Positions 957 to 18,141 of a stretch of DNA of 45,782 nucleotides are shown piece by piece. Each line of letters opens with the position of its first letter. Position 1 is the stretch's first letter. The notes under the pieces are model-generated. The model saw nothing but the letters and a program-made list of their open reading frames with translations. It made no database searches and was not told the origin of the DNA. A program made the translations under genes and the position numbers. The stretch is from positions 1 to 45,782 of the forward strand of contig MHDZ01000077.1 of assembly GCA_001805055.1 (NCBI GenBank). Reading direction: 5' to 3'. This DNA is from Nitrospirae bacterium GWC2_57_13 (GTDB lineage: Bacteria > Nitrospirota > UBA9217).

Positions 957-3914
957 TTACTGAGGAATCGCGACCACCTCTGTTTTGGTCGATTGAGTTC
1001 CAGTTGCATCCGTAACCGTGTAATTGATCGTGTACTGACCTGCGTACTTGTAGGTCTTCGTGAACGTTGCTCCGCCGGCGCCGCTGATCGCCGTACCATT
1101 GCCCCAGACCACTTTTACCTTGAGAGGCACGTCATCGTCGGTCGAACTGTCCACGAGGGTGACCGTCATGCCGGACAGGGTCATCGTGTAGGCGACCACC
1201 GGCTTGAGACTGACGTTCCTGGCAGTCACATCCGCTGAGTGCACTCCCTGGGTCCCCTCATTGGATACGATCAGTTTGACCCGGTACTGCCCGACAGCAT
1301 CATAGATGAACGCGGGCCTCATCGGATCGGCAAGGTCGGGCGTTCCCGCACCGCCGAAGTCCCAGGTGAACGTGCAGGTCGCTGTCGACGGCCGGCATGT
1401 ACTGAACGAGCCGTCAAAGTTCATCTTCCTGCTCACGACGGCGTCGGCATTGACGATAAAGTACGCCGATGGCATTTCCACGCCGGCCGTGCCGGGAGCG
1501 ATCAGCGACGCGAGGTAGGCACTGTCATAGCCCATTGCCTTGCGCTGATCGAGCGTGTTCGGGACTGTCCCGCCTGCGGGAGTGCTCCCGGCAATATCGA
1601 TGACAAAGGGGCCCCCCTTGACGTCCGACGTCTTGAACTGCATCTTCACCCGCTTCAGGGGGTTTCCCGAAGCATCGTTCACGACGGTCTGCACGAGGCC
1701 GCTGCCCCCGTCCTGCGGCTGGTCGAACAGCACATGCTTCTTGTCGAAGAATCCTACGGCATATTTCGAATAGTAGATATTGTTCCGATCATCACTCGCA
1801 TGGCACATAAGGCAGACGCCGCCTTCCGGAGCCCCGAGAATCTTCCCGGAGACGGTCGGCACGACATTATGGCTCACGGTGAATGCATTGACATAGAGGT
1901 TCATCACCGGCTCGCCCACGCCGAGCGCTTTCAGGTTACCGACCATCCATGCTATCTCGTCAGCCTTGTTGACTATCAGCGCTGTATCGCTGTTCTGCGC
2001 GCGATTGAGCGGCCAGTCGTAGACGCCGTTCGAATCAGCATCACCCCTGAATAGGCGATATGCTTCCGCGGACTGCGCGGCGAGGCGCTGGAACGCCGGT
2101 TTGTCCTCGGAACCGTCAACCCATACCGCCGAGGTCATGGTGATTGTCGGCAGGATGCGCACGACGCCTTTTTCCCGCAACCGGGGCGTATAGAGCGGTC
2201 GGTATACGATGCCCCCGCCGCCGCCCGTGGAGACCTGCGTCCGTTCATAGCCCCGGTACGTTCCCGCCGTATGGTCGATCACGTTCTCCTTGACGTCCGT
2301 CCTGAGCTCAGGTATATGGCAGGCACGGCAATCGATGCGGCCGAAGTGGAACGAGGGGAACCCCGTGTGCGTCGGTATCTTTATCACTTTGCTCGTTCCC
2401 GAGAGGTACCACTTTCCGTCCGGTTGCGTCTTGTCCACCCTGGGATGCGCTCCCGTAATGTGACAGCTTTCGCAGGTCACGGTGTTCGCGATCTGGTCCA
2501 TGTTCCTGCCGTCGGGACTGTTGTTCCCTTTCGCGAACATATGGTCGATGCGGAAGATGGTCACTTCGGGGAGGACCTCATTGTCGGATGCGTCATAAAC
2601 AGCGCCGAACGTATCTTCGATGATGTAATGGCAGTCAACGCAGTTCATGCCGCGGTCCATGTGAACGTCCGGGTTCTGCAACGGATCATTGATGGACCCT
2701 ATCCTCTTGCCGTATTCAGCGCGTTTCTTGGCGTAGTTCCATGGCACGTCGTTCAATCTATCAGTGCCGTTGGCCCCTGTCTCGTCGCTGTCAACGGCAC
2801 TGCCGGCGGGCATGCGCTTCTGAAATACCGTTGAACCAAGCGAAACTCCCGCCGGACCAAGCTCCGTCCAGCTCCCGTCCTCAAAATGGCAGATGGCGCA
2901 ATTCTCAGTTGCCGGGATCCTGTTGAACGATGTCTTGCTGATCTTCGCAAAATTGAACTGATTGGTGATCTCGGTGTTCCACTTCCATTGCGCCGGATCG
3001 ATAGTGGGATTTGTTCCCGCCGCCGCCTTCTGTCCTATCGTGAGCAGCCCGGCCGCGCCTTTCACGCCGACTAGACCGAGCGATGGAGCAAGATTCGGGC
3101 TCGAATACGCCGCCGTAAGGACCGGCTTTTCAGCAATGCCCCAGTTTCGTTCAACGTTCGCATACTGGCGTGAATAATGACAGATAAAACAATCGAACTC
3201 GACCACGCCGCCGTCCGCCCATGCAGCGGCCCTTGACTCCAGACCGACGCCTTGCACATAGGTGAAATAATCGCCCTTGATGTCATTTGGCAGCCGAGGA
3301 TTGAATCCTGCTGTTCCGAGCAGTCCGCTGTAGACGCCGTCATAACGGTATCCCGCCCGGTCGTATTCGAGGGAGCCGCCGCCCGGATGACACCAGGCGC
3401 ATTCGGAATGGGCGAAATCATATGAGCTCATGTCGAATCGCGACGGGTCCTGCTCCGCCGGATGCGTGAGCTGCCGGTCGGAGGGAGGACAGTATTTACC
3501 GTACATTCCCGATGAGCTGGTGAAAGCGAAGAGACCGTAATAATTGCGCTGAATGTCGCCCCAGGTCATGTTCCTGCCCATTTGATGGTATCCCGCTGTT
3601 ACTCCGTGCTGCGGATAGGGGACCAGATAGGAGGCAGTTCCCGGCCCATGGTCCTTGCGCGCCTGGCCGATGTGGCTCTCATAGATATTGTCCAGACCGA
3701 AAAAATCGACATATGATTTGTGGCATCCACCCGCAGAATTCGGAGCGCACGTCTGTTTCGGACTATAGGGAACACTGGTTCCAATAGTGATCGACTTATT
3801 GCTGTAGTCAATGAACGTTACGTCACCTCCGGAGTGCTCCGCACGAACTGATTGCATGAACCCGCCGATCATCGTCGAGATGGCAATCACCAGAAGAGCA
3901 GCCGTTTTCTTCAT
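957..3914 (-). CDS. Large multiheme c-type cytochrome with C-terminal PKD domains (Cys paralogue)
   Basis: A 985-residue exported cytochrome. AAAGGAGG stands six bases before the third of three consecutive ATGs, so 3914 is preferred over 3920. It has a signal peptide ending near SVRAEH. There are seven canonical CxxCH haem motifs (about residues 172, 242, 339, 425, 481, 529 and 701). An eighth, unusual motif lies near the N-terminus: Cys56, seven residues, then Cys64-His65. The C-terminal 145 or so residues form two PKD-like beta-sandwiches (TCTFTWDFGG; FIYDAVGQYRVKLIVS; YKYAGQYTINYTVTD), typical of surface proteins. It is paralogous over its length to the 4732-8559 gene; Cys142 (GKYCPPSDRQ, codon TGT) is the residue replaced there by an in-frame TGA. 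It is a single-gene unit with a sigma-54 promoter at 4317-4332 and a terminator at 893-930. The electron partner or substrate is unknown. Confidence 0.92.
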   Translation of the reverse strand: MKKTAALLVIAISTMIGGFMQSVRAEHSGGDVTFIDYSNKSITIGTSVPYSPKQTCAPNSAGGCHKSYVDFFGLDNIYESHIGQARKDHGPGTASYLVPYPQHGVTAGYHQMGRNMTWGDIQRNYYGLFAFTSSSGMYGKYCPPSDRQLTHPAEQDPSRFDMSSYDFAHSECAWCHPGGGSLEYDRAGYRYDGVYSGLLGTAGFNPRLPNDIKGDYFTYVQGVGLESRAAAWADGGVVEFDCFICHYSRQYANVERNWGIAEKPVLTAAYSSPNLAPSLGLVGVKGAAGLLTIGQKAAAGTNPTIDPAQWKWNTEITNQFNFAKISKTSFNRIPATENCAICHFEDGSWTELGPAGVSLGSTVFQKRMPAGSAVDSDETGANGTDRLNDVPWNYAKKRAEYGKRIGSINDPLQNPDVHMDRGMNCVDCHYIIEDTFGAVYDASDNEVLPEVTIFRIDHMFAKGNNSPDGRNMDQIANTVTCESCHITGAHPRVDKTQPDGKWYLSGTSKVIKIPTHTGFPSFHFGRIDCRACHIPELRTDVKENVIDHTAGTYRGYERTQVSTGGGGGIVYRPLYTPRLREKGVVRILPTITMTSAVWVDGSEDKPAFQRLAAQSAEAYRLFRGDADSNGVYDWPLNRAQNSDTALIVNKADEIAWMVGNLKALGVGEPVMNLYVNAFTVSHNVVPTVSGKILGAPEGGVCLMCHASDDRNNIYYSKYAVGFFDKKHVLFDQPQDGGSGLVQTVVNDASGNPLKRVKMQFKTSDVKGGPFVIDIAGSTPAGGTVPNTLDQRKAMGYDSAYLASLIAPGTAGVEMPSAYFIVNADAVVSRKMNFDGSFSTCRPSTATCTFTWDFGGAGTPDLADPMRPAFIYDAVGQYRVKLIVSNEGTQGVHSADVTARNVSLKPVVAYTMTLSGMTVTLVDSSTDDDVPLKVKVVWGNGTAISGAGGATFTKTYKYAGQYTINYTVTDATGTQSTKTEVVAIPQ

Positions 3915-4731: not shown

Positions 4732-7700
4732 CTACGGGGTCAGTGTCACGGTCTCGGATTTGACCGCCTTCGCGCCCGTGAAGTCCGTTACCGTGTAGTT
4801 GATGGTGTACTTTCCAGCGTACTTGTAGATTTTCGTGAGCGTTCCGCCGCCCACGCCGCTGGTCGCCGAGCCGTCGCCCCAGATGATCTTTACTCTGAGC
4901 GGCACGTCGACGTCGGTCGAGCTATCCACGAAGGCGACCGTCATGCCGGCCACGGTCATCGTGTAATTGACCACCGGTATGGTATTGACGGTAGATGCCA
5001 TAGCATTGGCAGTATGTACGCCCATGGTCACCCCGTTCGACACCATAAGCTTCACGGTGTAGGTGCCTGCTGCGTCATACACGAACGTGGGTTTTACGGA
5101 GCTCGTCATGTCCGGCGTTCCGGCCCCGCCGAAATCCCACGTGTAGGTGCAGGTCGCTGTTGACGGCTGGCACAGGCTTGCCGAACCGTCGAAGTTCACC
5201 TTCCTGCTGACCGTTGCGTCGGACTTGACGGTGAAGTACGCCGTCGGCGACTCCACGCCGGCCGTACCAGGGGACATGAGCGTCGCCAGCTGAAGTGCCG
5301 AATAACCGAGCAGGTCATTGGCATGCACCGTGGTCTTGATGTAGCCGCCGTCAACGCAGTCCAGAGGCGCGCCGGTCATGGGATTGTAGCACTTGGTGCC
5401 CTGATCCCAGGAGGCTACATGCGCCGCGTTGCTCGGATTCTTTTCGACCGAGATCGGCCAGGTTACCTTGGCCGCTGCGCCGGAACCCGATTGCTGCAGG
5501 GCGATCTTGAAATGCGACCGCGCCTCTCCCCTGCTGTACAGTAGCGGCATGGGATTGGCCAGGGCGCCCTCGCAGTCGGCGGTGACCATACAGGGGCCGC
5601 CATTCCGGAAGCCGCCGGTGCAGGCGCCCGGTACTGGAGGCGCTGCGCCCGTGCATACTCCCTGCATCATACCGCCATAAGGATCGTTGGCCGGATTCGG
5701 GATGCAGTTGTTCACGCTCTGGCCAGGCACGGGACTGAAGCTGACGGGGCCGGCAAAGGGATTGCAACCCTTGGTCGTGCCGTCAACAGTTTCGCGGATG
5801 GCGAATCCCTGGAGCCCGGCGATGCCGTCGAACATCCCCATCTGCATAGCCGTACCCTGCGGGAAGCCCATCATGGCGTCGAACCCTGCCGCCATCTGGG
5901 TGGTGCATTGTGTGAGGCAGGCATTCCCCGTGACAGGTGCACCCGTCAGGGGATTGAAAAGCGCCTGATCGTCGGCATCGGTCGGCGGGGTCGCCGGCGT
6001 CGGATCGCACATAGCAGTGCAATCGTAATCCGCGAACAGGGCGAACCAGTTTTTGATAAGATCATACTGTCCGATCCCCATCCCTGCCTTGTTCAAGGGC
6101 TGCTGATAGCTCTCGAAGAAAGCGGTGGATCTCGGAGAGTAGTTCTGATTGTGGGAAGCGCAGCTTCCGTCGGGGTTCCGGGTCGCGCAGGGATCAGCGC
6201 TCGAATGGCAGCTCACGCAGCCACCCTGCATCGATCCGCCGAGCGCCCACGCCTTCGGTGCCACGCCGTGGGTCACATCGAACATGGTGTTGAAGAGCTT
6301 CAGTTTGGTCGCGAATCCCGTGACGCCCACCATGGCGTCGATCTCGGCCTTGGTATCGATCTCCCAGGAATCAGAGAGGCTGAAACCGTCAAAGAGCGGA
6401 ATGATGTTCCCGCCGTTCAAACGGATATCGAAGCCGGGATTAGCCGCCGCAACGATCTTCGCGGCAGTGATATTGTCCCGTGCCTTCACAGGCGCCACAA
6501 GTATGGGATCAACCGGATAGGTCCCGCCGGCGATCTCACTGCCTGCCTCTATTCCCGAGTTGGGCGAAGCTTTCACCCAGATGGGCATCACCGAGGGCAG
6601 GAAGGGATAGATCTTCTGCTCGTGGTCTTTCGTAAGCCATGCATGCAGCATTGGCATCGTCTTATGCGAACCGGTCACGAGGTCGTAGTTCCAGTCCAGC
6701 ATGTTCCGGAACCCGCCCTTGTACTGTCCCACCGACCAGTCGCGGTACTTCAGGCGGCCGGGAGCGGCGTAGATCTCGGGAATGTGGCAGGTGGCGCAGG
6801 CGATCTTCTGGATGTGGAATGACGGGAACCCGGCATGGGCCGGCGTGGGAGAAACGAGCGGTCCACCGTTGTCCGTGAGCCGCGGATGGGTCCGCGTCGT
6901 GTGGCAGCTCTCGCAGGAGACCGTTCCGTCCAGGTTGTTCTTGGACTTCGTGTCCGGATAGGAGTCAGCCTGGGCAAACTGATGGTCTATTGCCCAGACC
7001 GTCTCGTCGGGATAGGGCAGCCCATGATGGTCCGCCGCCGGAAAGAGCTTGCTGTTCGTGGCGTCCTGGTCCGCCTGAGCATTGTAGACGGGATTTCTCA
7101 CTCCTCCCGTGTACTTTTTCTCCGACCCGAGTGTGTAGTGGCAGGAAGCGCACTGCATGCCCTTCACGTCATGCACGTCGGCGTCAGGCATTTTGTTCGC
7201 GATCGGATCGCCGGCATTCGGCACCGTGAGAGGATCGGCATCGAGCGTGCTCGCCAGGAACATGCTCATGCCGTATTTATCATTGGGACCGGCGCCGATC
7301 TTATGAGCCCGTTTGCCCATGCCGGTCTTGCAGCCCAGCTCGAACCAGAGCTTGTCGTTGGCTGCGTTCGTATCGTCATCGTACTGCGTGCCCGGCGGGC
7401 TGATGAGCGCGAAGTTGCCGTAGCCGTACTTCATGGCCATCATGCCCGGCAGGCCCGGAGTGCTGTCGTCGCGGGCGTGACAGACCGAGCAGTTTTTGCT
7501 GTTCGGCAGGGCATTGATCTGACCTTCCGCGATCTGGGTTGGTACGCCCGCCACGCCGGTCATTGCGCTGCCCGTCCATGTTGCGGCTGCACCGATACCC
7601 AGGGACGCTGCAAAATCGAACCTCTTGTTCTTGAGCGCCAGGTTCCGGTTGTACATGTCATAGGCCGTGCCGGCAGCGTAGGGTCCCGCAGTTGGAACCG

Positions 7701-8559
7701 TCGGCGGGTAGCCCGGGTCGGTCACGCCGTCGCAGTTCTTGTCATTCGACGGCCCCATGGGATTCGCAGGTCCGCACCCCATGGACTTCAGGAAGGCCTG
7801 GCCGTTCTTCGAATCGGCAAGATGGCACAGCAGGCAATCGAGCTCGGCCTTGTTCGTGGCCGACAAGCCGGCTGTGGCATCCACCGTGGTCAAGCGACCG
7901 CCTGGGAAGGCGAGACTCGGCATCTCAAAATAATACCGGTCGCCGGTGGGAGAGGAAGCACTGTAATTGTTCTGGTCCCGATCGTATTCCATCTGGCCGC
8001 CGCCTACGTGGCAGACGCCGCAGGTCACTGCCCAGTCCTGGGCGCCCGTTTCGATGGACTGCAAAGCGACACCGTTGTTGAGGGGATCGATGTTCTTGGC
8101 CGCCAACTGGCGGTTCGAGGGTGGTCAGTACTTGCCGAACATGCCAGGGGAACTCGTGAAAAAGGGGTCCCCGAACTTGATCCGCATGGAGGTGCCATAG
8201 GCCTCGTTCCGGCCCTGGTTCGAATGACGGCCCTTCGAGACACCGTGATCGAAGAAGTTCACATCATAGCTCTGCCAGTAGACCTGCCCGTCGGACTCCA
8301 GTAACCCTTGGGTGTGGGTGACCGACGCAGGCATGGAGCCGTAGTTGTGGCCTCCTGTTGTTGCGACGCCGCTGATATGGCAGGTCCCCGTGGCTCCGCA
8401 GCTCATCTTCGGGCTGTAGGGCGTCGTGGGTGCGGCGATCGCCCCGCCTGCCTGTTTCATATCCACAGCAGGATGGGGGGCCGCAGCAGCGAACCCTGCA
8501 CTGGCGATGAGCAGGACCAGGGACAGAGCTGCCATCGTCCATATTCTGGAAAACTTCAT
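4732..8559 (-). CDS. Candidate selenocysteine-containing multiheme c-type cytochrome with PKD domains (in-frame TGA at 8125-8127)
   Basis: A 1275-codon frame interrupted once, at codon 145, by TGA. Codons before and after share one frame, with no other stop for 1130 codons downstream. AAAGGAGG lies seven bases before the ATG at 8559, which heads a signal peptide (MKFSRIWTMA, cleavage near AAAAP). The protein has seven CxxCH motifs (about residues 180, 242, 357, 470, 549, 588 and 781), colinear with the paralogue at 957-3914. It also has an N-terminal Cys54-x5-Cys60-His61 and two C-terminal PKD domains. The paralogue reads GKY-Cys-PPSDRQL where this one reads GKY-TGA-PPSNRQL. A SECIS-like hairpin follows (8100-8113). 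Alternatives are a recent Cys-to-stop mutation or a base-call error. If the TGA is a true stop, the product would be a 144-residue fragment with only the atypical motif. Selenocysteine is my preferred but unproven reading. Confidence 0.75.
8100..8127 (-). promoter_or_regulatory. SECIS-like hairpin directly after the in-frame TGA
   Basis: In the minus-strand transcript UGA (8127-8125) is followed after 11 nt by CCGCC (8113-8109), AGUU (8108-8105) and GGCGG (8104-8100). This is a 5-bp G/C stem with a 4-nt loop, or 6 bp if A-U closes. The loop begins 16 nt after the UGA and has G in its second position. Both fit the general bacterial SECIS description: loop roughly 16-37 nt from UGA, a short stem of at least 4 bp, and G in the first two loop bases. 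Confidence 0.6.
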
Positions 8560-8708
8560 GCTGATTCCTCCTTTCATTACGTTCGCAAACCGAAAAATAG
8601 GTCAACAACGATAAGGGACCGCGCTTCTCACCTCCATTGCTTACCGCTATTCACCTGGTTTGGGGGTTGGTGACTGGAGATGCGAAGGTCCGATCCTCAT
8701 GTTTTACA

Positions 8709-9323: not shown

Positions 9324-10097
9324 ATGAAACGCTACACATTGTTGTTCGCAGTCCTGGGGATACTGCTCATATCCTCACTAGCCATGGCAGGCATGACACC
9401 GAAGACCGGCATCGTCGGTTCCTATCATGACCTGAGCACATTGGGAGCAGCCACGAATTGGGGAGACACGGCTGAGCAGAATGAGGCAAACGGCGGACTG
9501 AACCGGATCTGCATCTACTGCCATGCGCCGCACCACACGCTCTCACCGGCAGAGGCGGAACTGAAGGGCTACGATTATCTGCCCCTTTGGAACCACAAAC
9601 TCTCGGAAGTTACCTACATCTACTACTCGAACATCAGCAACAATCCGAATGACACTGACCACCAGTTCAACGGCGCTGCCAGCATCGGCCAGCCCGGCGG
9701 CGTCTCGCGCCTCTGCCTGAGCTGCCATGACGGCTCCGTGGCCACCAATGCCTACGGATTCGCCCCCTCATTATCGCTCGGAGCAGGCGACAAGAAGTTC
9801 GCGACCACGCACCGCGCAAACCTCGGCGGCACGGACAGCGACGATCTCTCGAACGACCATCCCATCGGATTCCTGTATGCCAATGCCGATGACAATGATG
9901 CTGAGATAGCCGCGGCAACAGCGACCATGAACGCTCAATACTCGATCGGCGACCTTCTCTGGGGAGGCAGGATGGAGTGCACGACCTGCCATGATGTGCA
10001 TAACACGCAGAACGACGGCGAGAAGTTCCTCTGGGTCTCCGACAAGAACAGCGGTCTCTGCCTGACCTGCCATCTCAAGGGCACACTGACACCGTAA
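9324..10097 (+). CDS. Secreted tetraheme c-type cytochrome, OmcE/nanowire-like
   Basis: A 257-residue exported protein (signal peptide MKRYTLLFAVLGILLISS, cleavage near AMAG) with four CxxCH haem motifs at residues 63, 131, 219 and 246. The order of motifs resembles the OmcE-type tetraheme cytochromes that polymerise into extracellular filaments: N-terminal GIVGSYHDLS, then RICIYCHAPHH, PLWNHKL, RLCLSCHDGS, ECTTCHDVH and LCLTCH. The N-terminal 200 residues of the 16330-18141 protein are clearly related. AGGAGG precedes the ATG. It is expressed alone from a sigma-54 promoter and closed by a strong terminator, as expected for an abundantly made subunit. Haem count and export are seen directly; polymerisation is inferred from family resemblance only. 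Confidence 0.9.
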   Translation: MKRYTLLFAVLGILLISSLAMAGMTPKTGIVGSYHDLSTLGAATNWGDTAEQNEANGGLNRICIYCHAPHHTLSPAEAELKGYDYLPLWNHKLSEVTYIYYSNISNNPNDTDHQFNGAASIGQPGGVSRLCLSCHDGSVATNAYGFAPSLSLGAGDKKFATTHRANLGGTDSDDLSNDHPIGFLYANADDNDAEIAAATATMNAQYSIGDLLWGGRMECTTCHDVHNTQNDGEKFLWVSDKNSGLCLTCHLKGTLTP

Positions 10098-10141
10098 CAG
10101 CGCTCTGTCGATCAGATCCAAATTTGCGACTTGATCGTTTC

Positions 10142-10175
10142 AGAAGAGGGATGAAGGCTGTCCCTCTTCTTTTTT
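10142..10175 (+). terminator. Rho-independent terminator after the tetraheme cytochrome
   Basis: A perfect 10-bp stem, AGAAGAGGGA (10142-10151) with TCCCTCTTCT (10161-10170), followed by a T run to 10175. It separates the tetraheme gene from the downstream operon. Confidence 0.93.
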
Positions 10176-10225
10176 CTTGTCCTGGTTTCATGGTTTCGAA
10201 TTTTATCGCAATGCGCACGATCCGA

Positions 10226-10254
10226 TTGAATTCATTAGTGCTATCTGATATAAT
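10226..10254 (+). promoter_or_regulatory. Sigma-70-type promoter of the conduit operon
   Basis: TTGAAT (10226-10231), a 17-bp spacer, then a consensus TATAAT (10249-10254). Transcription should start near 10261, about 120 nt before the ATG at 10382. Unlike the four stand-alone cytochrome genes this operon shows no -24/-12 element. Confidence 0.75.
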
Positions 10255-10381
10255 CGCCGACGAATATCTCTTATCTTTCAAAACACTATATATGATGCGG
10301 TTCCTGCCGAGCGGAACTCGCGCATAAGCTATCGTCGGAATTCCATGCTCGTTTCAGTACTACCAAAGAAGGAGAGAAAAC

Positions 10382-11557
10382 ATGACCAGGACCGGTTCAG
10401 CCGTGAAGCTTCTGGGGCTCGCGCTCGTCATTCTGGTGGGAGGCTGCGCTTCAGGGGGGCCGAAAAAATATGAGGCCGTTTTCTACCCGGAGCCGCCGGA
10501 GCTTCCTCGCATCCAGTTCCTTACGTCATTCACCGAGGCGAGCGACGTCCAGCCCGGCAAGTCCTGGTTCGAACTCTTCATAACCGGCGAGAAGGAAGCG
10601 AGACTGCGTCCTGATAAGCCTTACGGCACCGCTGTTCACCAGGGCCGCATATTTGTCTGCGACACGAACTCAACGGTCGTCTTCTTCGACCTGGGAAAAA
10701 AGACCTACGGCACCCTGGAAGGTGCCGTAGGGCTCGGCAAGCTTCGCCAACCCCTGAACATCAGCATCGACCGCGATGGCAACAAATACGTCGCCGATCC
10801 CGTCCGCAGCGACATTGCCGTCTACGACCGCAATGACGCCTTCGTCCGTTCCCTCAACGCGCCGGAACGGTGGAAGCCCGTGGACGTGGCGGTCTTCGAG
10901 GACGGTGTCTATGTCGTTGATATGAAAAATGCCCTGGTCCACGTCTTCGACCGCCGGAACGGGGCCTATCTCCGCAAGTTCGGCCAGTCGGAGACCGCTG
11001 AGGGCAGCCTCAGACTTCCGGCGAACATCGCCTTTGATAAGGACGGCTACCTCTACCTCTCCGACACCGGACGGTTCCAGATCGTGAAGATGGACAGGGA
11101 CGGCAATATCCGCGGGACCTTCGGCCAGCTCGGCACGAGCACGGGTTATTTCGCCCGGCCCCGCGGCGTCGCCGTCGACCGGGCGGGCCGGGTCTATGCC
11201 GTGGACGCCGCCTTCGACAACGTTCAGATATTCACGGCCGAGAAGCGGATGCTCATGTATTTCGGCAAGGCGGGAGTCAAGCCGGGAGATCTGTTCCTTC
11301 CTGCCTCGGTGACCATAGACTACGATAATGTCGATTATTTCCGAAAATTCGCCGACCCCAAGTTCGAGATCGAGCACCTGATCTTCGTGACCAGCCAGTT
11401 CGGCGAAAGATTGGTGAACGTCTACGGGTTTGGAAAGGAAAAGGGCAAGACCTATCCGACCGAGGCGGAGCTCCTTGAGCGGCTCATGGAGCGCATGAAG
11501 ATAGAGAAGGAGAAGCAGGAGAAAGAAGACGGAACAGCGTCGGGCGAAAAGAAGTAA
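10382..11557 (+). CDS. NHL-repeat beta-propeller lipoprotein
   Basis: A 391-residue lipoprotein: signal peptide with lipobox LVGGC (Cys22). A six-bladed propeller made of NHL-type repeats follows, with recurring phrases such as LRQPLNISIDRDGNKYVAD, PANIAFDKDGYLYLSDTG and PRGVAVDRAGRVYAVDAAFD. The tail is a charged, probably helical stretch rich in Glu and Lys. The propeller has no catalytic signature and probably acts as a binding scaffold at the membrane. It heads the operon; AAGGAGAG lies just before the ATG and the next gene starts 10 bp after its stop. A second, related propeller is encoded at 15299-16333. NHL proteins are common neighbours of extracellular cytochrome genes, suggesting a role in cytochrome assembly or anchoring, but this is inference. 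Confidence 0.88.
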   Translation: MTRTGSAVKLLGLALVILVGGCASGGPKKYEAVFYPEPPELPRIQFLTSFTEASDVQPGKSWFELFITGEKEARLRPDKPYGTAVHQGRIFVCDTNSTVVFFDLGKKTYGTLEGAVGLGKLRQPLNISIDRDGNKYVADPVRSDIAVYDRNDAFVRSLNAPERWKPVDVAVFEDGVYVVDMKNALVHVFDRRNGAYLRKFGQSETAEGSLRLPANIAFDKDGYLYLSDTGRFQIVKMDRDGNIRGTFGQLGTSTGYFARPRGVAVDRAGRVYAVDAAFDNVQIFTAEKRMLMYFGKAGVKPGDLFLPASVTIDYDNVDYFRKFADPKFEIEHLIFVTSQFGERLVNVYGFGKEKGKTYPTEAELLERLMERMKIEKEKQEKEDGTASGEKK

Positions 11558-11567
11558 GCGGAGCACT

Positions 11568-12116
11568 ATGGGGAAAAAGCGGGTCTTCGCGGTCCTTCTT
11601 TCCGCAGTGCTGATCGTCGGGACGATCATCGGGTGTTCACGGGACACGACCTATCGGGTGCTGAGCGTATTCTTCGACGGTGTGCCCGCCCCTGGTAGCC
11701 CAAAAGACTCCCTCATAGACGACAGGGGCAGACGAAAATCAGCACCTGACACGGCCAGGCGGATCCGGTACGGGGAGCACGGTCCCTACGCGGCAAAGCT
11801 CTGTGATGGGTGCCACCTCCGCGGCGGCAGCTTCAAGCTGATCATGCCGATCGAGGAACTCTGCTTCCACTGCCACACGATCACGGTGGACCGAAAAAAG
11901 GTGCACGGCCCTCTCGCCTCGGGAGGATGCCGGGTCTGCCACGAACCGCACGGTTCATCGTTCCGGCTGCTCCTGACCTCTGAGTCCAGGGAGTTCTGCG
12001 TCCGCTGTCATGCAACGGAAGACGTGCTGAAACGGGAGGTCCATCGGGACAATCCCATGGAGTGCACGGACTGTCACGACGCCCACGCGTCGGACAACGA
12101 GCATCTGCTGAAATGA
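11568..12116 (+). CDS. Pentaheme c-type cytochrome lipoprotein
   Basis: A 182-residue lipoprotein (lipobox GTIIGC, Cys23) with five CxxCH motifs at residues 79, 99, 121, 144 and 166, in the paired CxxCH arrangement of small c3/c7-like cytochromes (LCDGCH, LCFHCH, GCRVCHEPHG, FCVRCH, ECTDCHDAH). A short segment after the lipid anchor reads SVFFDGVPAPG. It sits immediately before the outer-membrane barrel gene, so a natural role is the lipid-anchored cytochrome that delivers electrons to, or lies within, a porin-cytochrome conduit. The membrane leaflet cannot be told from sequence. Confidence 0.88.
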   Translation: MGKKRVFAVLLSAVLIVGTIIGCSRDTTYRVLSVFFDGVPAPGSPKDSLIDDRGRRKSAPDTARRIRYGEHGPYAAKLCDGCHLRGGSFKLIMPIEELCFHCHTITVDRKKVHGPLASGGCRVCHEPHGSSFRLLLTSESREFCVRCHATEDVLKREVHRDNPMECTDCHDAHASDNEHLLK

Positions 12117-12203
12117 ACGCTTGTTTTCTCAAAGATCACGCTCCATGGGGAATGAGCCCGCTCCGAACCGGATTCCGGAGCCCGGAGAACGCTTTAACGG
12201 CCC

Positions 12204-14279
12204 ATGAACGTCCATCGGCACATACGCCCGGAACGACCGCACACTGCCCCCCCTTCACGGAGAGCAGCGGCCCGTTCCTGTATTTGCCTTTGCCTTACCC
12301 TGTGGGCGCTATTCGTTCCTCTGACGGCCCAAGGCCAGCAGCGCATGTTCCTGCCCCGCATCACGGCCTATGAAGGCCTTCTGGAGCTGGACGGGCAGTA
12401 TGCGCGGAACTACAACGAGACCAACGGCAGTGGTACGGCGGTTGAGCACTCCCTGCTCACGGAAAAAATGCGGATCAACGCCTACGGCTATATCTATCAT
12501 CCCCGGTTCATCTCGTTCTTCCTGAGCGGAGCAGGAGGGTTTCAGCAGGAATCGTATACTGCTGTGCGGACCGGCGACGACTCGCCCCGGACCACGGCTT
12601 CGACGAAGGAGCATGAGTTCCGGATCGCTATCCTTCCCGAACATCCCTACCGTCTGGAGCTCTATACCTTGCGCCGCCGTCCCTTTTACCGGAAGATAGC
12701 AGCCGACGGCATCAGTCCCGTGATCACCGAAAAAGGAGCGCTGTTCCGTCTTGAGCAGCGGCCGTTCCTGATCGGAGCCGACTATGCCCTGTCGTCACAG
12801 ACGACGAATACGGGCGTCGTCGACACACGGATGAAAAGGCTGGCCGTGACTCATTTTATTTCACGGTTCGTCACGTCCGCCGGCGTCCACGCAACAGACA
12901 CCATGGCGCCCGAGGTCCGGGCCCTGCGGGAGGAGTATTTCTTCTCCAACCAGTTCACCATTGAAAAGGCCATACAGCTCCAGAGCAAGGTAAACATGGA
13001 CCGCTATTTTCAGGATGAGACCGTGGAATCCCGGGATGACCGCCAGGTGACCTGGACGGAACGCCTGTCTCTGAACCTTCCCTGGAATTTCGAGGGAGAC
13101 CTGTCCTATGACGAGGTCCGGGATCGCCTGATCACGGACAGCCCATCTTTTCCGGAGCCGGCACGCCAATTATTCGAGTCCCGCGCCGGGACCTTGGGCC
13201 TTACCCACCGGCTCTTCTACAGCCTGCGCACCAATTACGGCTTGACGTACCGTGAACTGGAATCATCCCGGGGGGAAAGCTCTACTGCGTCCAACCATAT
13301 CGGAGCGACATATCAGAAGAACCTCCCCGGGGGGCGGCTCCTGGCCGGCGTGGACGGCGGCCGAAGCCTGACGGACAACATCGGCGCCCCCGCGGTGGCT
13401 GAAACATTCCAGCGGAGCGCGGACGGGACAGGAACCTACACACTCAGCCAGCCGAATGTCGACACCGCCACGATCGTCCTGAGAGTGAAGGACCCCTCAA
13501 CAGGCCTTTTCCGAACGATGCAGGAAGGGCCGACATTGCATTACGAACTGGTCCCGGTCGGAGATACGGTCCGGATCAATATCCTGGATGTTCCCTTTAT
13601 TGATACGGGAGCGGCCTATGACTTCCACGTCGCCTACTCCGTCATCCCGGCCGAATACGAGCTCAAGCTGACCCGCTTCAGTCATAACTGGAAGCTCGAC
13701 CTTCTGAACAACCGCATCAGCCCCTACTATCGGTATACCTATTCAAAGCAGGAGCTTCTGTCGGGGTCCCTGCCCGGTGAGCCTGTGACAAGCAAGATCA
13801 GTTTTGTCGGCGTATCCGCCCGGCAGGCCCCCTATTCGGGATTCATCGAGTACGAGAGCGTCCGCTCCACGAAGAATCCGACGCGCCAGATCAACGGAGA
13901 CCTGCGTTATGTGGAAAAAGTGGCCCCCAACGCGCACCTTGACGCGAGGCTTTTTTATCGCCGCTCCATGTACTCACAGGACACCTTCGGCCTTTCCAAT
14001 GAAGGGCATACCGTCAACGTGATCGGGCTGGATGCGAAACTGAAACAGAGGCTGCGGCAGAAGAACCTCAGCCTCACTGCCGGCGCGTCCCTCTCCTACC
14101 GGAGCAGCACGACCGACACCTACCGTTACGGCCTGTCCTGCGGTCTTCTCTGGAACAAGGGCAGCCTTACCGTCGACGCGGGCGCCAGCCTGAACTATTC
14201 TGAAAGTTCTTCACTCTTTGCTGATTCCGAGCAGCATTCGGTCCACTACTACGCTTCCATAAAGCGAAGACTATTCTGA
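12204..14279 (+). CDS. Outer-membrane beta-barrel (porin-like) protein of a cytochrome conduit
   Basis: A 691-residue protein with an N-terminal export signal (hydrophobic CICLCLTLWALFVPL, then AQGQQ) and a body of alternating polar/aromatic strands. It ends in Phe (YYASIKRRLF), the classic terminal residue of barrels inserted by the Bam complex. No haem motif is present. It is similar in style, size and ending to the barrel at 43022-44941. Its position between a lipoprotein multiheme cytochrome and a periplasmic isomerase fits the barrel of an outer-membrane electron conduit. The start is uncertain: the ATG at 12204 has only a distant GGAG, and the signal peptide would have a long positively charged front; a later start is possible. 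Confidence 0.75.
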   Translation: MNVHRHIRPERPHTAPPSRRAAARSCICLCLTLWALFVPLTAQGQQRMFLPRITAYEGLLELDGQYARNYNETNGSGTAVEHSLLTEKMRINAYGYIYHPRFISFFLSGAGGFQQESYTAVRTGDDSPRTTASTKEHEFRIAILPEHPYRLELYTLRRRPFYRKIAADGISPVITEKGALFRLEQRPFLIGADYALSSQTTNTGVVDTRMKRLAVTHFISRFVTSAGVHATDTMAPEVRALREEYFFSNQFTIEKAIQLQSKVNMDRYFQDETVESRDDRQVTWTERLSLNLPWNFEGDLSYDEVRDRLITDSPSFPEPARQLFESRAGTLGLTHRLFYSLRTNYGLTYRELESSRGESSTASNHIGATYQKNLPGGRLLAGVDGGRSLTDNIGAPAVAETFQRSADGTGTYTLSQPNVDTATIVLRVKDPSTGLFRTMQEGPTLHYELVPVGDTVRINILDVPFIDTGAAYDFHVAYSVIPAEYELKLTRFSHNWKLDLLNNRISPYYRYTYSKQELLSGSLPGEPVTSKISFVGVSARQAPYSGFIEYESVRSTKNPTRQINGDLRYVEKVAPNAHLDARLFYRRSMYSQDTFGLSNEGHTVNVIGLDAKLKQRLRQKNLSLTAGASLSYRSSTTDTYRYGLSCGLLWNKGSLTVDAGASLNYSESSSLFADSEQHSVHYYASIKRRLF

Positions 14280-14294
14280 TCAGGGAGGTATATC

Positions 14295-15302
14295 ATGAGC
14301 CTGTCACATCGTATGCGAGGCGCGGCGCTTTTCCTGACCGTCGTCCTGCTCACCGGAGTTGGATGTTCAGCACGGACGTCTTCCACCCAGAAAGCGCAGG
14401 AGGAGTCCAAAAAGATCGTCGTTGCCAGGGTCAACAGCGCGCCGATAACCATGGATGCCGTCGTCATTATGATGAACCGCCTTGCCGCGCGCAGCCAGGA
14501 CGGGTCGACGCCGGAGAGGACCGAGGAGATCAGGAAAGCATCTCTGGACCGGCTCATTCTTCAGGAACTGGCCTGGCAGCAGGCCCGGTCCCGGGGGATC
14601 GCACCGGACCCGAAGAACATCGACGCTTCCATCGCGAACCTCCGGATGAACCTGGGCGGTAAAAAGGAATATGCCGAGTTTCTCGAAAAAGATGGGGTCA
14701 CCGAAAAAGAGCTTCGCGCGAGGGTCGAACGTAGCCTCACCGTCGAACTGATCTTCGCCCGTGAAGTACTGGACAAGATCGTGATTCCCGAAGAGGATGT
14801 CCGGAAAGAGTATCAAAAGGAGAAAGCACGCTACGTGCTTCCCGAAAAGATCAACGTGACCGATGTCGCATTCTTTCTGAAGGGTGACAAGAAGGCTGCC
14901 CGGAAGAGCGCCCGGGAGATCCTGAAAATGATCACGGCCGACCCCGGAAAGGACCCCTGGAAGCTCGTGCTCGACGGCACCTTCATCGTACGGACCCTGG
15001 AGGTCCGCGCCGACCGTGACAAGGAACTGCACGCAGCCGCAAAAAAGCTGAAGCTGAATGGCCTGTCCGGCATCATTAACGCTTCGGACGGTTACCACAT
15101 TATCAAACTGAAGCAGTATGAGCCGTCGCGCCAGCTCACCTTCGACGAAGTGCGGCCCACTCTGGAACAAAAATTTCGGGTCCCCGAACAGGACAAAAGG
15201 CTCGCCCAATGGGAGCAGGAAATGAGGGCGGGGGCTTCCATAGAAATGGTCGGATCGGCGCTGAAGACCTCGAAGGCTGACAAGGAAACAACGACACCAT
15301 GA
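14295..15302 (+). CDS. SurA/PrsA-like peptidyl-prolyl isomerase lipoprotein
   Basis: A 335-residue lipoprotein (lipobox TGVGC, Cys24). Residues about 40-170 form the helical chaperone part of SurA/PrsA proteins (ARVNSAPITMDAV, then LDRLILQELAWQQARSRGI). Residues about 180-290 resemble a parvulin domain (RYVLPEKINVTDVAFF, then LNGLSGIINASDGYHIIKL). The canonical parvulin ERFS and GG-DLG motifs are weak, so isomerase activity is uncertain and it may be mainly a chaperone. AGGGAGG precedes the ATG. It overlaps the next gene by ATGA. Its place between a barrel and a propeller suggests folding of outer-membrane or cytochrome clients. Confidence 0.85.
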   Translation: MSLSHRMRGAALFLTVVLLTGVGCSARTSSTQKAQEESKKIVVARVNSAPITMDAVVIMMNRLAARSQDGSTPERTEEIRKASLDRLILQELAWQQARSRGIAPDPKNIDASIANLRMNLGGKKEYAEFLEKDGVTEKELRARVERSLTVELIFAREVLDKIVIPEEDVRKEYQKEKARYVLPEKINVTDVAFFLKGDKKAARKSAREILKMITADPGKDPWKLVLDGTFIVRTLEVRADRDKELHAAAKKLKLNGLSGIINASDGYHIIKLKQYEPSRQLTFDEVRPTLEQKFRVPEQDKRLAQWEQEMRAGASIEMVGSALKTSKADKETTTP

Positions 15303-16333
15303 AGTTGAGAACGCTTCTGACTTGCTGCATGCTCGCTGCCCTGGCATCGGGATGCGCAACGACATGGAACATGCGCACTGAGGTCTCGCCTGCGCCGATC
15401 GCCTGGAGCGATTCCGGTGGACACATTCGGATCCGGCATCTGATGACGGTGCGCGGATTTGCCGAGGGAGGCGTGACCGCGTCGAACGTCCTGCGCTATG
15501 CACTCTTCGGAAGATCACGGGACGCTGACCTGGTCCGTCCCGTTGCCGTTGCCATGGACCGTGAAGGCCGGCTTGCCATCGCCGACACCGGCTGCAGGTG
15601 CGTACATCTCTATCTGCCTGCTGAAAAGCGGTATGTAAAACTGGTCACGGCTGGCGAGCGGCCGTTCCTTTCGCCCGTGAGCGTCGCTTTTGACGCAGAA
15701 TCCCGGATGTTCATTTCCGACTCTGCTGGCGGCTTCATCTCGCTCTTCGACCGGGACGGTGTTTTCCTGTCATTCCTGACAACAGCAGCAAGCACGGAGC
15801 GATCGAGGCCCACGGGCCTTGCCTATCTGGCCGGGACAGGGACCCTCTACGGCGTGGACACGCGGTCCCACGAGATCGTCGCCTTGGCCGCAGATGGAAA
15901 CCATCTCTTCTCCTTCGGCTCCCGGGGAGCGGAAGCAGGGAAGTTCAACTTCCCGACGCACATCGCCGTAGCACAGGACGGAAAGATCTACGTGACCGAT
16001 GCGATGAACTTCCGGATCCAGGTCTTCGACCGGTCCGGCTCCCTCCTCGCCTCCTTTGGAAAGCACGGGAACGGCTCAGGCGATCTTTCCATGCCCAAGG
16101 GCGTGGCCGTCGATAGTTCAGGCGTTATCTACGTGGTGGATGCCCTGTTCGACAACGTGCAGTTGTTCAACCTGAAGGGGGAGTTCCTGTTCACGCTCGG
16201 AGGACGGGGTGCGGCCCCCGGCGAGTTCTGGCTTCCATCGGGAGCGTTGATCGACGGCAAGGACCGCCTGTATGTCTGTGATACCTACAACCAGCGGGTC
16301 CAGATATTTCAGATCGAGGTCGGCGAACGATGA
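15299..16333 (+). CDS. Second NHL-repeat beta-propeller lipoprotein
   Basis: A 344-residue lipoprotein (lipobox LASGC, Cys19) made almost wholly of NHL repeats, seen as recurring phrases VAMDREGRLAIADTG, IAVAQDGKIYVTDAMNFRIQVFD, GVAVDSSGVIYVVDALFDNVQLF and LPSGALIDGKDRLYVCDTYN. It is paralogous to 10382-11557 but lacks that protein's charged tail. It starts inside the stop of the isomerase gene (ATGA) and its own stop overlaps the following cytochrome start (ATGA), so the three genes are translationally coupled. It is probably a periplasmic or surface scaffold for the neighbouring cytochrome. Confidence 0.9.
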   Translation: MKLRTLLTCCMLAALASGCATTWNMRTEVSPAPIAWSDSGGHIRIRHLMTVRGFAEGGVTASNVLRYALFGRSRDADLVRPVAVAMDREGRLAIADTGCRCVHLYLPAEKRYVKLVTAGERPFLSPVSVAFDAESRMFISDSAGGFISLFDRDGVFLSFLTTAASTERSRPTGLAYLAGTGTLYGVDTRSHEIVALAADGNHLFSFGSRGAEAGKFNFPTHIAVAQDGKIYVTDAMNFRIQVFDRSGSLLASFGKHGNGSGDLSMPKGVAVDSSGVIYVVDALFDNVQLFNLKGEFLFTLGGRGAAPGEFWLPSGALIDGKDRLYVCDTYNQRVQIFQIEVGER

Positions 16334-18141
16334 ACAGATCGATCACCACCGGCACAGGACTGGCGCTGTTCCTCCTCGTTGTCGCCCTTCCGTCGCCCCG
16401 CGGAACGAGCGCGCAGACCGGCATCGTGGCGACCAAACACAACCTGTCGGCCTCGGGGCCCGGAGAATTGAAGGCCCTCACGGAGACGAGGATCTGCGTC
16501 TTCTGCCATACTCCGCACAATGCGCAGCCGGCAACGCCGCTCTGGAACAAAAAAATAGAGCCCCTGACCTATATCACGTATTCCAGCAGCACCATGGGCG
16601 CGACGCCGGGACAGCCCACGGGACCGTCCCGGCTCTGCCTGAGCTGTCATGACGGCACCGTTGCGCTGGGCGCGGTCCTTCAGCCTTCAGGCGGCATCGA
16701 CATGTCGGTGTCGGGAGGCATCCCCTCTGCTCGTCCGTCCTATCTCGGGACCTTCCTGTCCGACGACCATCCCGTTTCATTCTCCTATAGTGATTCGCTC
16801 CCCAATCCGGAACTTTCGCCGACACTTCCTCCGGACCTGCTCTTCTACGGGACCGGGACCCTGCATTGTTCCACCTGCCATGACCCTCATGACAACAGCA
16901 ATAAGAAATTTCTCGCCGTGGACAACGAGTTCTCCGGCCTCTGCCGGAAATGTCATGTGAAAACGGGTTGGCTGGGATCAAGCCATAACACGTCCATGGC
17001 CCTATGGAACAACATGTCCCCGAACCCCTGGCCGAGAACAGGCGCCGGAACGGAGTTCCACTGGACGACCGTTGCGCAGAATGCCTGCGAGAACTGCCAC
17101 GCGACCCACTCCGCCGAGGGGCCGAAACGCCTTCTGACCTGCTTTGATGCGGACTGCGCGCCATTCACTGAAGAGGGCACCTGCTATGCATGTCATAACG
17201 GGAATGTGGCGTCCCTGGATGTGCGTTCGCAGTTCACGAAATCGTCCCGCCACTCCGTGGACTACGCGGTAAATGTCCATGCTCCCGGCGAGGACCCCAA
17301 GCTCATCACGAACCACGTGGAGTGCGCAGACTGCCACAACGCGCATGGAGCGCAGAACAAGTCGACCTCCGCCCCTGCCGTGTCGGGCAAAACGGCCGGC
17401 GTCAGCGGAGTCGACATCAATGGCGCGGCCCTGTCATCGGCGGTCAATGAATATGAGATCTGCTTCAAATGTCATGCCGGTTCCACTCCGCTCAAGCCTC
17501 TTTCACCGGGGTTCCCGATCGAGCGGGCCGTCAATTCGGTGAACACACGCCTCGAGTTCAACACCCTTAATCCGTCGTACCATCCCGTCGTGAGCTACGG
17601 AAAGAACAGTGATGTTCCGAGCCTGCCGTCAACACTGGCGCCGATCGAGTGGAACCTCTCGACATCGAGCATTATCTACTGCACTGATTGCCACGACAGC
17701 GACGAGACCGTTACGCTCGGCGGAGCAGGACCGAGGGGGCCCCATGGGTCCCTCTACAGTCCTCTGCTTCGCGAGGCCTACGAGACCACGGACAACACGG
17801 CGGAAAGCGCGTCGAACTATGCGCTCTGCTACCGGTGCCACGATCGGACCAGCATTCTGTCGGATATCAGTTTTCAGAGGAATCTAACGGCGGGAAGAGG
17901 AGGGCACAGTCTGCATCTGGGGCCTCTCGTGAACGCCCCCTGCTCGGCCTGTCATGATCCGCATGGTGTGGTGGACAACGGCATGTCAGGCAGCCATACC
18001 CATCTCATTAACTTCGACATCACGATCGCTACTACGATCAGCCCGAATCTGTACCCGTTTTTCACTGATACAGGCGGCCGCTCGGGAAGCTGCATGCTTG
18101 TCTGCCACGGCATCAGCCATTCAGGCTATTCCTACCCCTAG
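16330..18141 (+). CDS. Large multiheme c-type cytochrome with OmcE-like N-terminal domain (11 CxxCH plus one CX3CH)
   Basis: A 603-residue exported protein (signal peptide to about GTSAQ). Residues 30-210 match the tetraheme 9324-10097 protein: TGIVATKHNLS, RICVFCHTPHN, PLWNKKI, RLCLSCHDGT, HCSTCHDPHD and LCRKCH (haem sites near 56, 103, 180 and 205). Seven more CxxCH motifs follow (ACENCH, TCYACH, ECADCH, ICFKCH, YCTDCH, LCYRCH, PCSACHDPH). Near the C-terminus is a twelfth site with one extra residue (SCMLVCHGISH, CX3CH). No membrane anchor is seen. It is the last gene of the operon. It could be the terminal, surface-facing cytochrome of the conduit, or the piece that caps or nucleates a filament of the tetraheme protein; both are inferences. 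Confidence 0.9.
   Translation: MNRSITTGTGLALFLLVVALPSPRGTSAQTGIVATKHNLSASGPGELKALTETRICVFCHTPHNAQPATPLWNKKIEPLTYITYSSSTMGATPGQPTGPSRLCLSCHDGTVALGAVLQPSGGIDMSVSGGIPSARPSYLGTFLSDDHPVSFSYSDSLPNPELSPTLPPDLLFYGTGTLHCSTCHDPHDNSNKKFLAVDNEFSGLCRKCHVKTGWLGSSHNTSMALWNNMSPNPWPRTGAGTEFHWTTVAQNACENCHATHSAEGPKRLLTCFDADCAPFTEEGTCYACHNGNVASLDVRSQFTKSSRHSVDYAVNVHAPGEDPKLITNHVECADCHNAHGAQNKSTSAPAVSGKTAGVSGVDINGAALSSAVNEYEICFKCHAGSTPLKPLSPGFPIERAVNSVNTRLEFNTLNPSYHPVVSYGKNSDVPSLPSTLAPIEWNLSTSSIIYCTDCHDSDETVTLGGAGPRGPHGSLYSPLLREAYETTDNTAESASNYALCYRCHDRTSILSDISFQRNLTAGRGGHSLHLGPLVNAPCSACHDPHGVVDNGMSGSHTHLINFDITIATTISPNLYPFFTDTGGRSGSCMLVCHGISHSGYSYP

Follow-up and report, generated by a model that had tools for sequence, protein, structure and literature searches.

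A predicted selenocysteine in a secreted octahaem cytochrome distantly related to octaheme tetrathionate reductase (OTR)

The cytochrome genes and their surroundings

The window, that is, the whole stretch of 45,782 nt analysed here, contains two related genes for multihaem cytochromes on the minus strand, one of which carries an in-frame TGA (Table 1). The frame of this gene extends from the ATG at 8559 to 4732, and the TGA is its sole interruption in 1275 codons, as claimed in the first-pass annotation. A signal peptide is visible in the sequence of the product. Haem motifs 2 to 8 are all CXXCH (n = 7), the first alone being CX5CH. The TGA falls in the haem 1 - haem 2 interval. It is outside every CXXCH, also in agreement with the first-pass annotation. 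The paralogue contains a Cys codon in the same column, within the motif GKY-C-PPS-DRQL; the assignment of this residue as Cys142 holds if translation starts at MKKT. The length of the first haem motif varies across the family, with CX2CH, CX4CH, CX5CH (8377-8400 in the gene with the TGA) and CX7CH (paralogue, 957-3914) all being represented.

A divergent gene cluster adjoins the gene with the TGA. In other Nitrospirota, the tetrahaem c, the NHL lipoprotein, the pentahaem c, the 691-aa protein and the SurA-like PPIase adjoin the gene as a conserved set, which is partly preserved in Desulfobulbaceae as well. No Pfam or NCBIfam match was obtained for the 691-aa protein ending in Phe. The cluster looks like a porin-cytochrome conduit, a resemblance that suggests an extracellular oxidoreductase.

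Table 1. Features of the cytochrome genes, the hairpin and the adjoining cluster in the window.
Feature	Position	Strand	Remarks
Cys paralogue	957..3914 (or 3920)	-	TGT 3489-3491 in same column; no SECIS hairpin at corresponding place
Octahaem cytochrome gene, predicted to contain selenocysteine	4732..8559	-	1275 codons including in-frame TGA; signal peptide; 8 haem motifs; C-terminal PKD domains; stop TAG
PKD domain (PF18911)	5032..5253	-	
Haem 8 motif CVSCH	6205..6219	-	
Haem 7 motif CATCH	6784..6798	-	
Haem 6 motif CESCH	6901..6915	-	
Haem 5 motif CASCH	7138..7152	-	
Lys416 of conserved GKR motif	7312..7314	-	Profile-aligned with KRG of the wider octahaem family, where OTR has the haem ligand Lys153
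Haem 4 motif CSVCH	7477..7491	-	
Haem 3 motif CLLCH	7822..7836	-	
Haem 2 motif CGVCH	8008..8022	-	35 residues past the TGA codon; followed by VGGGQMEYDR
bSECIS hairpin CCGCC-AGTT-GGCGG	8100..8113	-	TGA to apical loop 16 nt; G at loop position 2
In-frame TGA, read as selenocysteine	8125..8127	-	Residue 145 (151 if counted from upstream ATG at 8577)
Haem 1 motif CGATGTCH (CX5CH)	8377..8400	-	
Shine-Dalgarno AGGAGG ahead of ATG 8559	8567..8572	-	
Divergent cluster	9324..18141	+	Tetrahaem c, NHL lipoprotein, pentahaem c, 691-aa barrel-like protein ending in Phe, SurA-like PPIase, second NHL lipoprotein, 11-motif cytochrome

Decoding of the in-frame TGA

In 84,980 species genomes, 78 loci were recovered, and the residue in the column of the TGA was counted in 79 genes, including the two genes of the window and one further genome locus. 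The count gave 35 genes with selenocysteine (Sec; TGA) from approximately 32 genomes, 32 with Cys and 12 with other residues (Tyr, Ser, Leu or Gln), where the letter counted as "other" is sometimes that of a neighbouring residue, in a group for which the alignment gives Tyr. Tyr was observed in the Sec column of L170, L192 and L201 (RWYPYAFRQLAKK), which belong to the Acidobacteriota and Gemmatimonadota. In an alignment of 54 sequences, Sec or Cys occupies the column in more than 90% of the rows; the position is not freely variable. Relatives from the same phylum contain the TGA within the motif (F/W/Y)G(K/R)(Y/F)-U-PPSNRQL, and TGA was found in the same column in genomes G049 (two genes), G002, G008, G261 (two), G269 (two) and G193. 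The Sec form is distributed over Desulfobulbaceae, Desulfobacca, Desulfobacteraceae, Nitrospirota, Ammonifex thiophilus (Bacillota), Planctomycetota, Wallbacteria and Abyssobacteria. The subfamily with a PKD tail is rare, with matches at E 1e-20 in 5 of 198 sampled Desulfobacterota genomes, two of the five being weak. A search of viral contigs revealed no relatives.

The phylogeny was computed with the Sec region left out. Seven changes of the Sec label are needed on the tree, and the starred branches force at least six gains or losses. The paralogue in the window (P0002-type) falls in a group with three other genes, two of them Sec and one Cys. The closest relatives of the Sec gene of the window belong to the Desulfobulbaceae (L126 is 74% identical across the columns used for the tree) and not to other Nitrospirota, and horizontal transfer of the gene at 4732-8559 is possible.

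A hairpin centred on CGCCAGTTGGCG is located 3' of the TGA, with its first base 11 nt past the codon. The bSECIS rule (PMC13188914) specifies a loop of 3-9 nt, a stem of 4-16 bp, a G in one of the first two loop positions and a distance of 16-37 nt from the UGA, with an energy cut-off of at most -7.5 kcal/mol. The window hairpin conforms to this rule, with an energy of -8.3 kcal/mol, a loop offset of 16 and a stem of 5 bp. At the cut-off of -7.5 kcal/mol, the rule was passed by 28 of the 35 Sec genes, by 3 of the 32 Cys genes and by none of the 12 others. Because the synonymous-codon null was drawn from codons at those same sites, it errs on the conservative side for the Sec genes. Clear departures from the ideal hairpin were seen in four Sec genes (L177, L193, L200 and L202), and a bulge is required in L196.

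Comparison of 17 aligned Sec genes showed variable third positions on either side of the hairpin, while CGC CAG TTG GCG is nearly frozen. The substitutions in the stem comprise one double change from C-G to U-A and one change from C-G to U-G. Both the covariation score and the number of double-change cells were above those of all 500 shuffles, although related sequences contribute to this excess. Folding of the window hairpin as a single sequence gave a stability not beyond that of shuffled sequences (z about -0.3 to -1.7); non-significant by itself, it was dropped as proof of a SECIS. The Rfam search for SECIS gave no family match. In one metagenome-assembled genome (MAG), a Cys copy with an intact SECIS hairpin (L131; L131:510) is present together with a Sec copy (L130); we regard L131 as a recent change from Sec to Cys, in which an intact hairpin is expected.

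The 3.3-Mb Nitrospirota assembly of the host was searched for the decoding machinery. It contains a tRNA-Sec (selC) with anticodon TCA, 66 bits over the Rfam cut-off, as well as selA, selB and selD, so that all four genes whose presence the first-pass annotation had proposed to check were found. The host SelD is itself a selenoprotein, with a TGA within a UAAK motif; UxxK is the canonical SelD motif (PMC13188914). Thus, the organism is expected to decode Sec regardless of the cytochrome gene. Across the family, selA scored over the cut-off in 23 of 26 genomes with Sec at the column versus 12 of 24 genomes with other forms (Fisher p 0.0035).

Alternatively, the TGA might be a genuine stop, arising from a nonsense mutation, a sequencing error or a split gene with a separately translated second half. 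A single TGA is the sole break in the frame, and MAG assemblies can contain errors. However, the codon recurs in many independent assemblies and phyla, and with Sec or Cys in more than 90% of the aligned sequences, chance and sequencing error are ruled out. Furthermore, the frame past the TGA is conserved for 500-1100 codons, a SECIS hairpin is linked to the codon, and the only start of the downstream open reading frame is a TTG located 18 nt past the TGA. A genuine stop is therefore highly improbable. Still far less credible is a genome-wide reassignment of TGA to Trp or Gly, which an otherwise open frame would also fit, but which we exclude because many nearby genes end in TGA as a normal stop (15 of the 26 open reading frames listed for the window), the partner residue is Cys, and a tRNA-Sec with anticodon TCA is present.

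We conclude that the TGA at 8125-8127 is almost certainly decoded as Sec, as predicted from sequence data. The first-pass annotation had taken the Cys/TGA pair in the window as the sign of a selenoprotein, a proposal upheld by the machinery, by the recurrence of TGA or Cys in the homologue search and by a bSECIS hairpin that tracks Sec and not Cys.

Relationship to OTR and to other cytochromes

No model in Pfam or NCBIfam spans the octahaem part as a family; weak matches were obtained to TIGR04315, TIGR04314 and small generic cytochrome models, and no selenoprotein model matches the window family. The TIGR04315 score is 23.5 bits for the window gene and 22-48 bits over its relatives, all under the curated cut-off of 375. 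Profile comparisons connected the window family (A1) to a wider octahaem family (A4) at E 6.8e-71, and the latter to OTR at E 5e-20. The AlphaFold2 model of the octahaem domain (pLDDT 75, pTM 0.83) gave a single significant PDB match, to the Shewanella OTR 1SP3, with E 4.9e-4 and a probability of 0.97 at a low TM-score of 0.23. Foldseek with the compact model of L196 gave no significant PDB match. By its motifs the window protein is an octahaem cytochrome, and by profile homology it belongs to a broad, deep-branching family distantly related to the OTR superfamily.

The window protein shares with OTR (TIGR04315; PDB 1SP3) the eight c haems, profile homology across haems 4-7, the DVH and K-R/H-G motifs, and a Cys or Sec in the interval between haem 1 and haem 2. 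It differs in the spacing from Sec to haem 2, which is 35 residues as compared to 10 in 1SP3, and in the long insertions, the secreted architecture and the PKD tail or FdnI-type cytochrome b of many family members. The latter resembles the gamma subunit of formate dehydrogenase-N (FdnI, 1KQF chain C), a quinone-linked cytochrome b found at the C-terminal end of the membrane-anchored members; many members of the wider family end in this domain, whereas the window protein has PKD domains in its place. Fusions of the octahaem part to the quinone-linked cytochrome b were observed in L145-L150, L183 and L188 (checked in L145, L146, L147, L183 and L188), most of them with Sec.

The first-pass annotation considered Sec in a large secreted haem protein to be highly unusual. 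In a multihaem cytochrome it is indeed unusual, although precedents exist. A 2026 catalogue of prokaryotic selenoproteins includes in its Table 1 a GenBank-annotated TIGR04315 selenoprotein, WP_331457571.1, for which neither a motif nor a study is given (PMC13188914). The window protein is similar to this Sec form of OTR in being an octahaem cytochrome with Sec, but belongs to a different family by score. The same catalogue lists ExtKL of Geobacter (NF040886; GSU2937-2936), earlier predicted to be a Sec-containing multihaem cytochrome (PMC1914089, PMC5877670), for which neither a SECIS nor non-Sec homologues were found in the 2007 study (PMC1914089). ExtKL is likewise a c-type multihaem cytochrome with an in-frame TGA predicted as Sec; unlike the window family, it has five haems N-terminally and a C-terminal part resembling no known protein. 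Membership in the ExtKL family was rejected, as NF040886 gave zero matches to 12 members of the window family. Literature searches among open-licence papers found no account of the window family.

Putative role of the selenocysteine

The alignment to 1SP3 puts Cys64 (in NNFC) in the haem 1 - haem 2 interval; Asp150 and Lys153 come past haem 4. In this structure from 2004, these three residues surround the catalytic haem 2, which has a Lys ligand (Lys153). Among 395 sampled Desulfobacterota genomes, approximately 30 genuine OTRs (over the TIGR04315 cut-off) contain one TGA. In the five that were inspected (L209, L213, L214, L219 and L220, all from Desulfobacterota), the TGA is positioned exactly at Cys64, within NNFU or NSFU. 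The Lys motif is aligned between the profiles of the window family, the wider family and OTR. A forced global hhalign did not align the Sec column of the window with Cys64 of OTR. Because of this result and the spacing of 35 versus 10 residues, the correspondence between Sec and Cys64 is positional, and we infer function from it by analogy.

Sec could instead have a structural or protective function away from the catalytic haem, as a redox switch, in a seleno-disulfide or in resistance to over-oxidation, in a protein that is mainly an electron carrier. The lack of alignment to the Cys64 column favours this reading, as do the members with Tyr, Ser, Leu or Gln at the position. It is opposed by the predominance of Sec and Cys in the column across several phyla, by the Sec at exactly Cys64 in true OTRs, by the retention of the Lys motif that belongs to the active site of OTR, and by the repeated exchanges between Sec and Cys, which suggest a reactive residue. 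We consider a structural or protective function to be the less probable reading, but a serious one.

By analogy to Cys64 of OTR, the Sec is somewhat more probably an active-site residue that faces the catalytic haem on its substrate side, a placement preferred to the direct haem ligand that the first-pass annotation had also envisaged. The Sec coding signal, the machinery, the conservation, the octahaem architecture and the distant OTR homology are documented by sequence. Our overall explanation, with Sec decoding as its firm part and the active-site role as its more tentative one, is considered highly probable. SelB with tRNA-Sec would recognise the hairpin past the TGA, and translation would run on into the secreted octahaem PKD cytochrome. 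Within the OTR-related family, a single position in the haem 1 - haem 2 interval is occupied by Sec or Cys, or by one of a few other residues. The proximity of Sec to haem 2, its part in catalysis and the localisation of the protein are predicted. The selenolate may bind or attack the substrate, or join in a multi-electron reduction for which the remaining haems would supply electrons; candidate substrates are an S, N or Se oxyanion, or a disulfide. Encoded beside a porin-cytochrome-type cluster, the window enzyme would act as a terminal oxidoreductase outside the cell or on its outer surface.

We place even odds on an undescribed and widespread family of Sec enzymes with a selenium-haem active site, in which the selenolate faces the substrate side of a c-haem that has a Lys ligand and is one of a chain of eight haems; the enzyme of the window would then be exported together with the porin-cytochrome cluster and serve in respiration as an extracellular oxidoreductase. 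The finding would add a large and taxonomically broad selenoprotein family, the members of which may be truncated at the TGA by annotation pipelines. The many natural pairs of Sec and Cys forms, some within one genome as in this window, provide a probe of the part played by selenium beside haem. Finally, the finding ties Sec to the OTR superfamily and makes the unsettled question of its physiological substrates testable.
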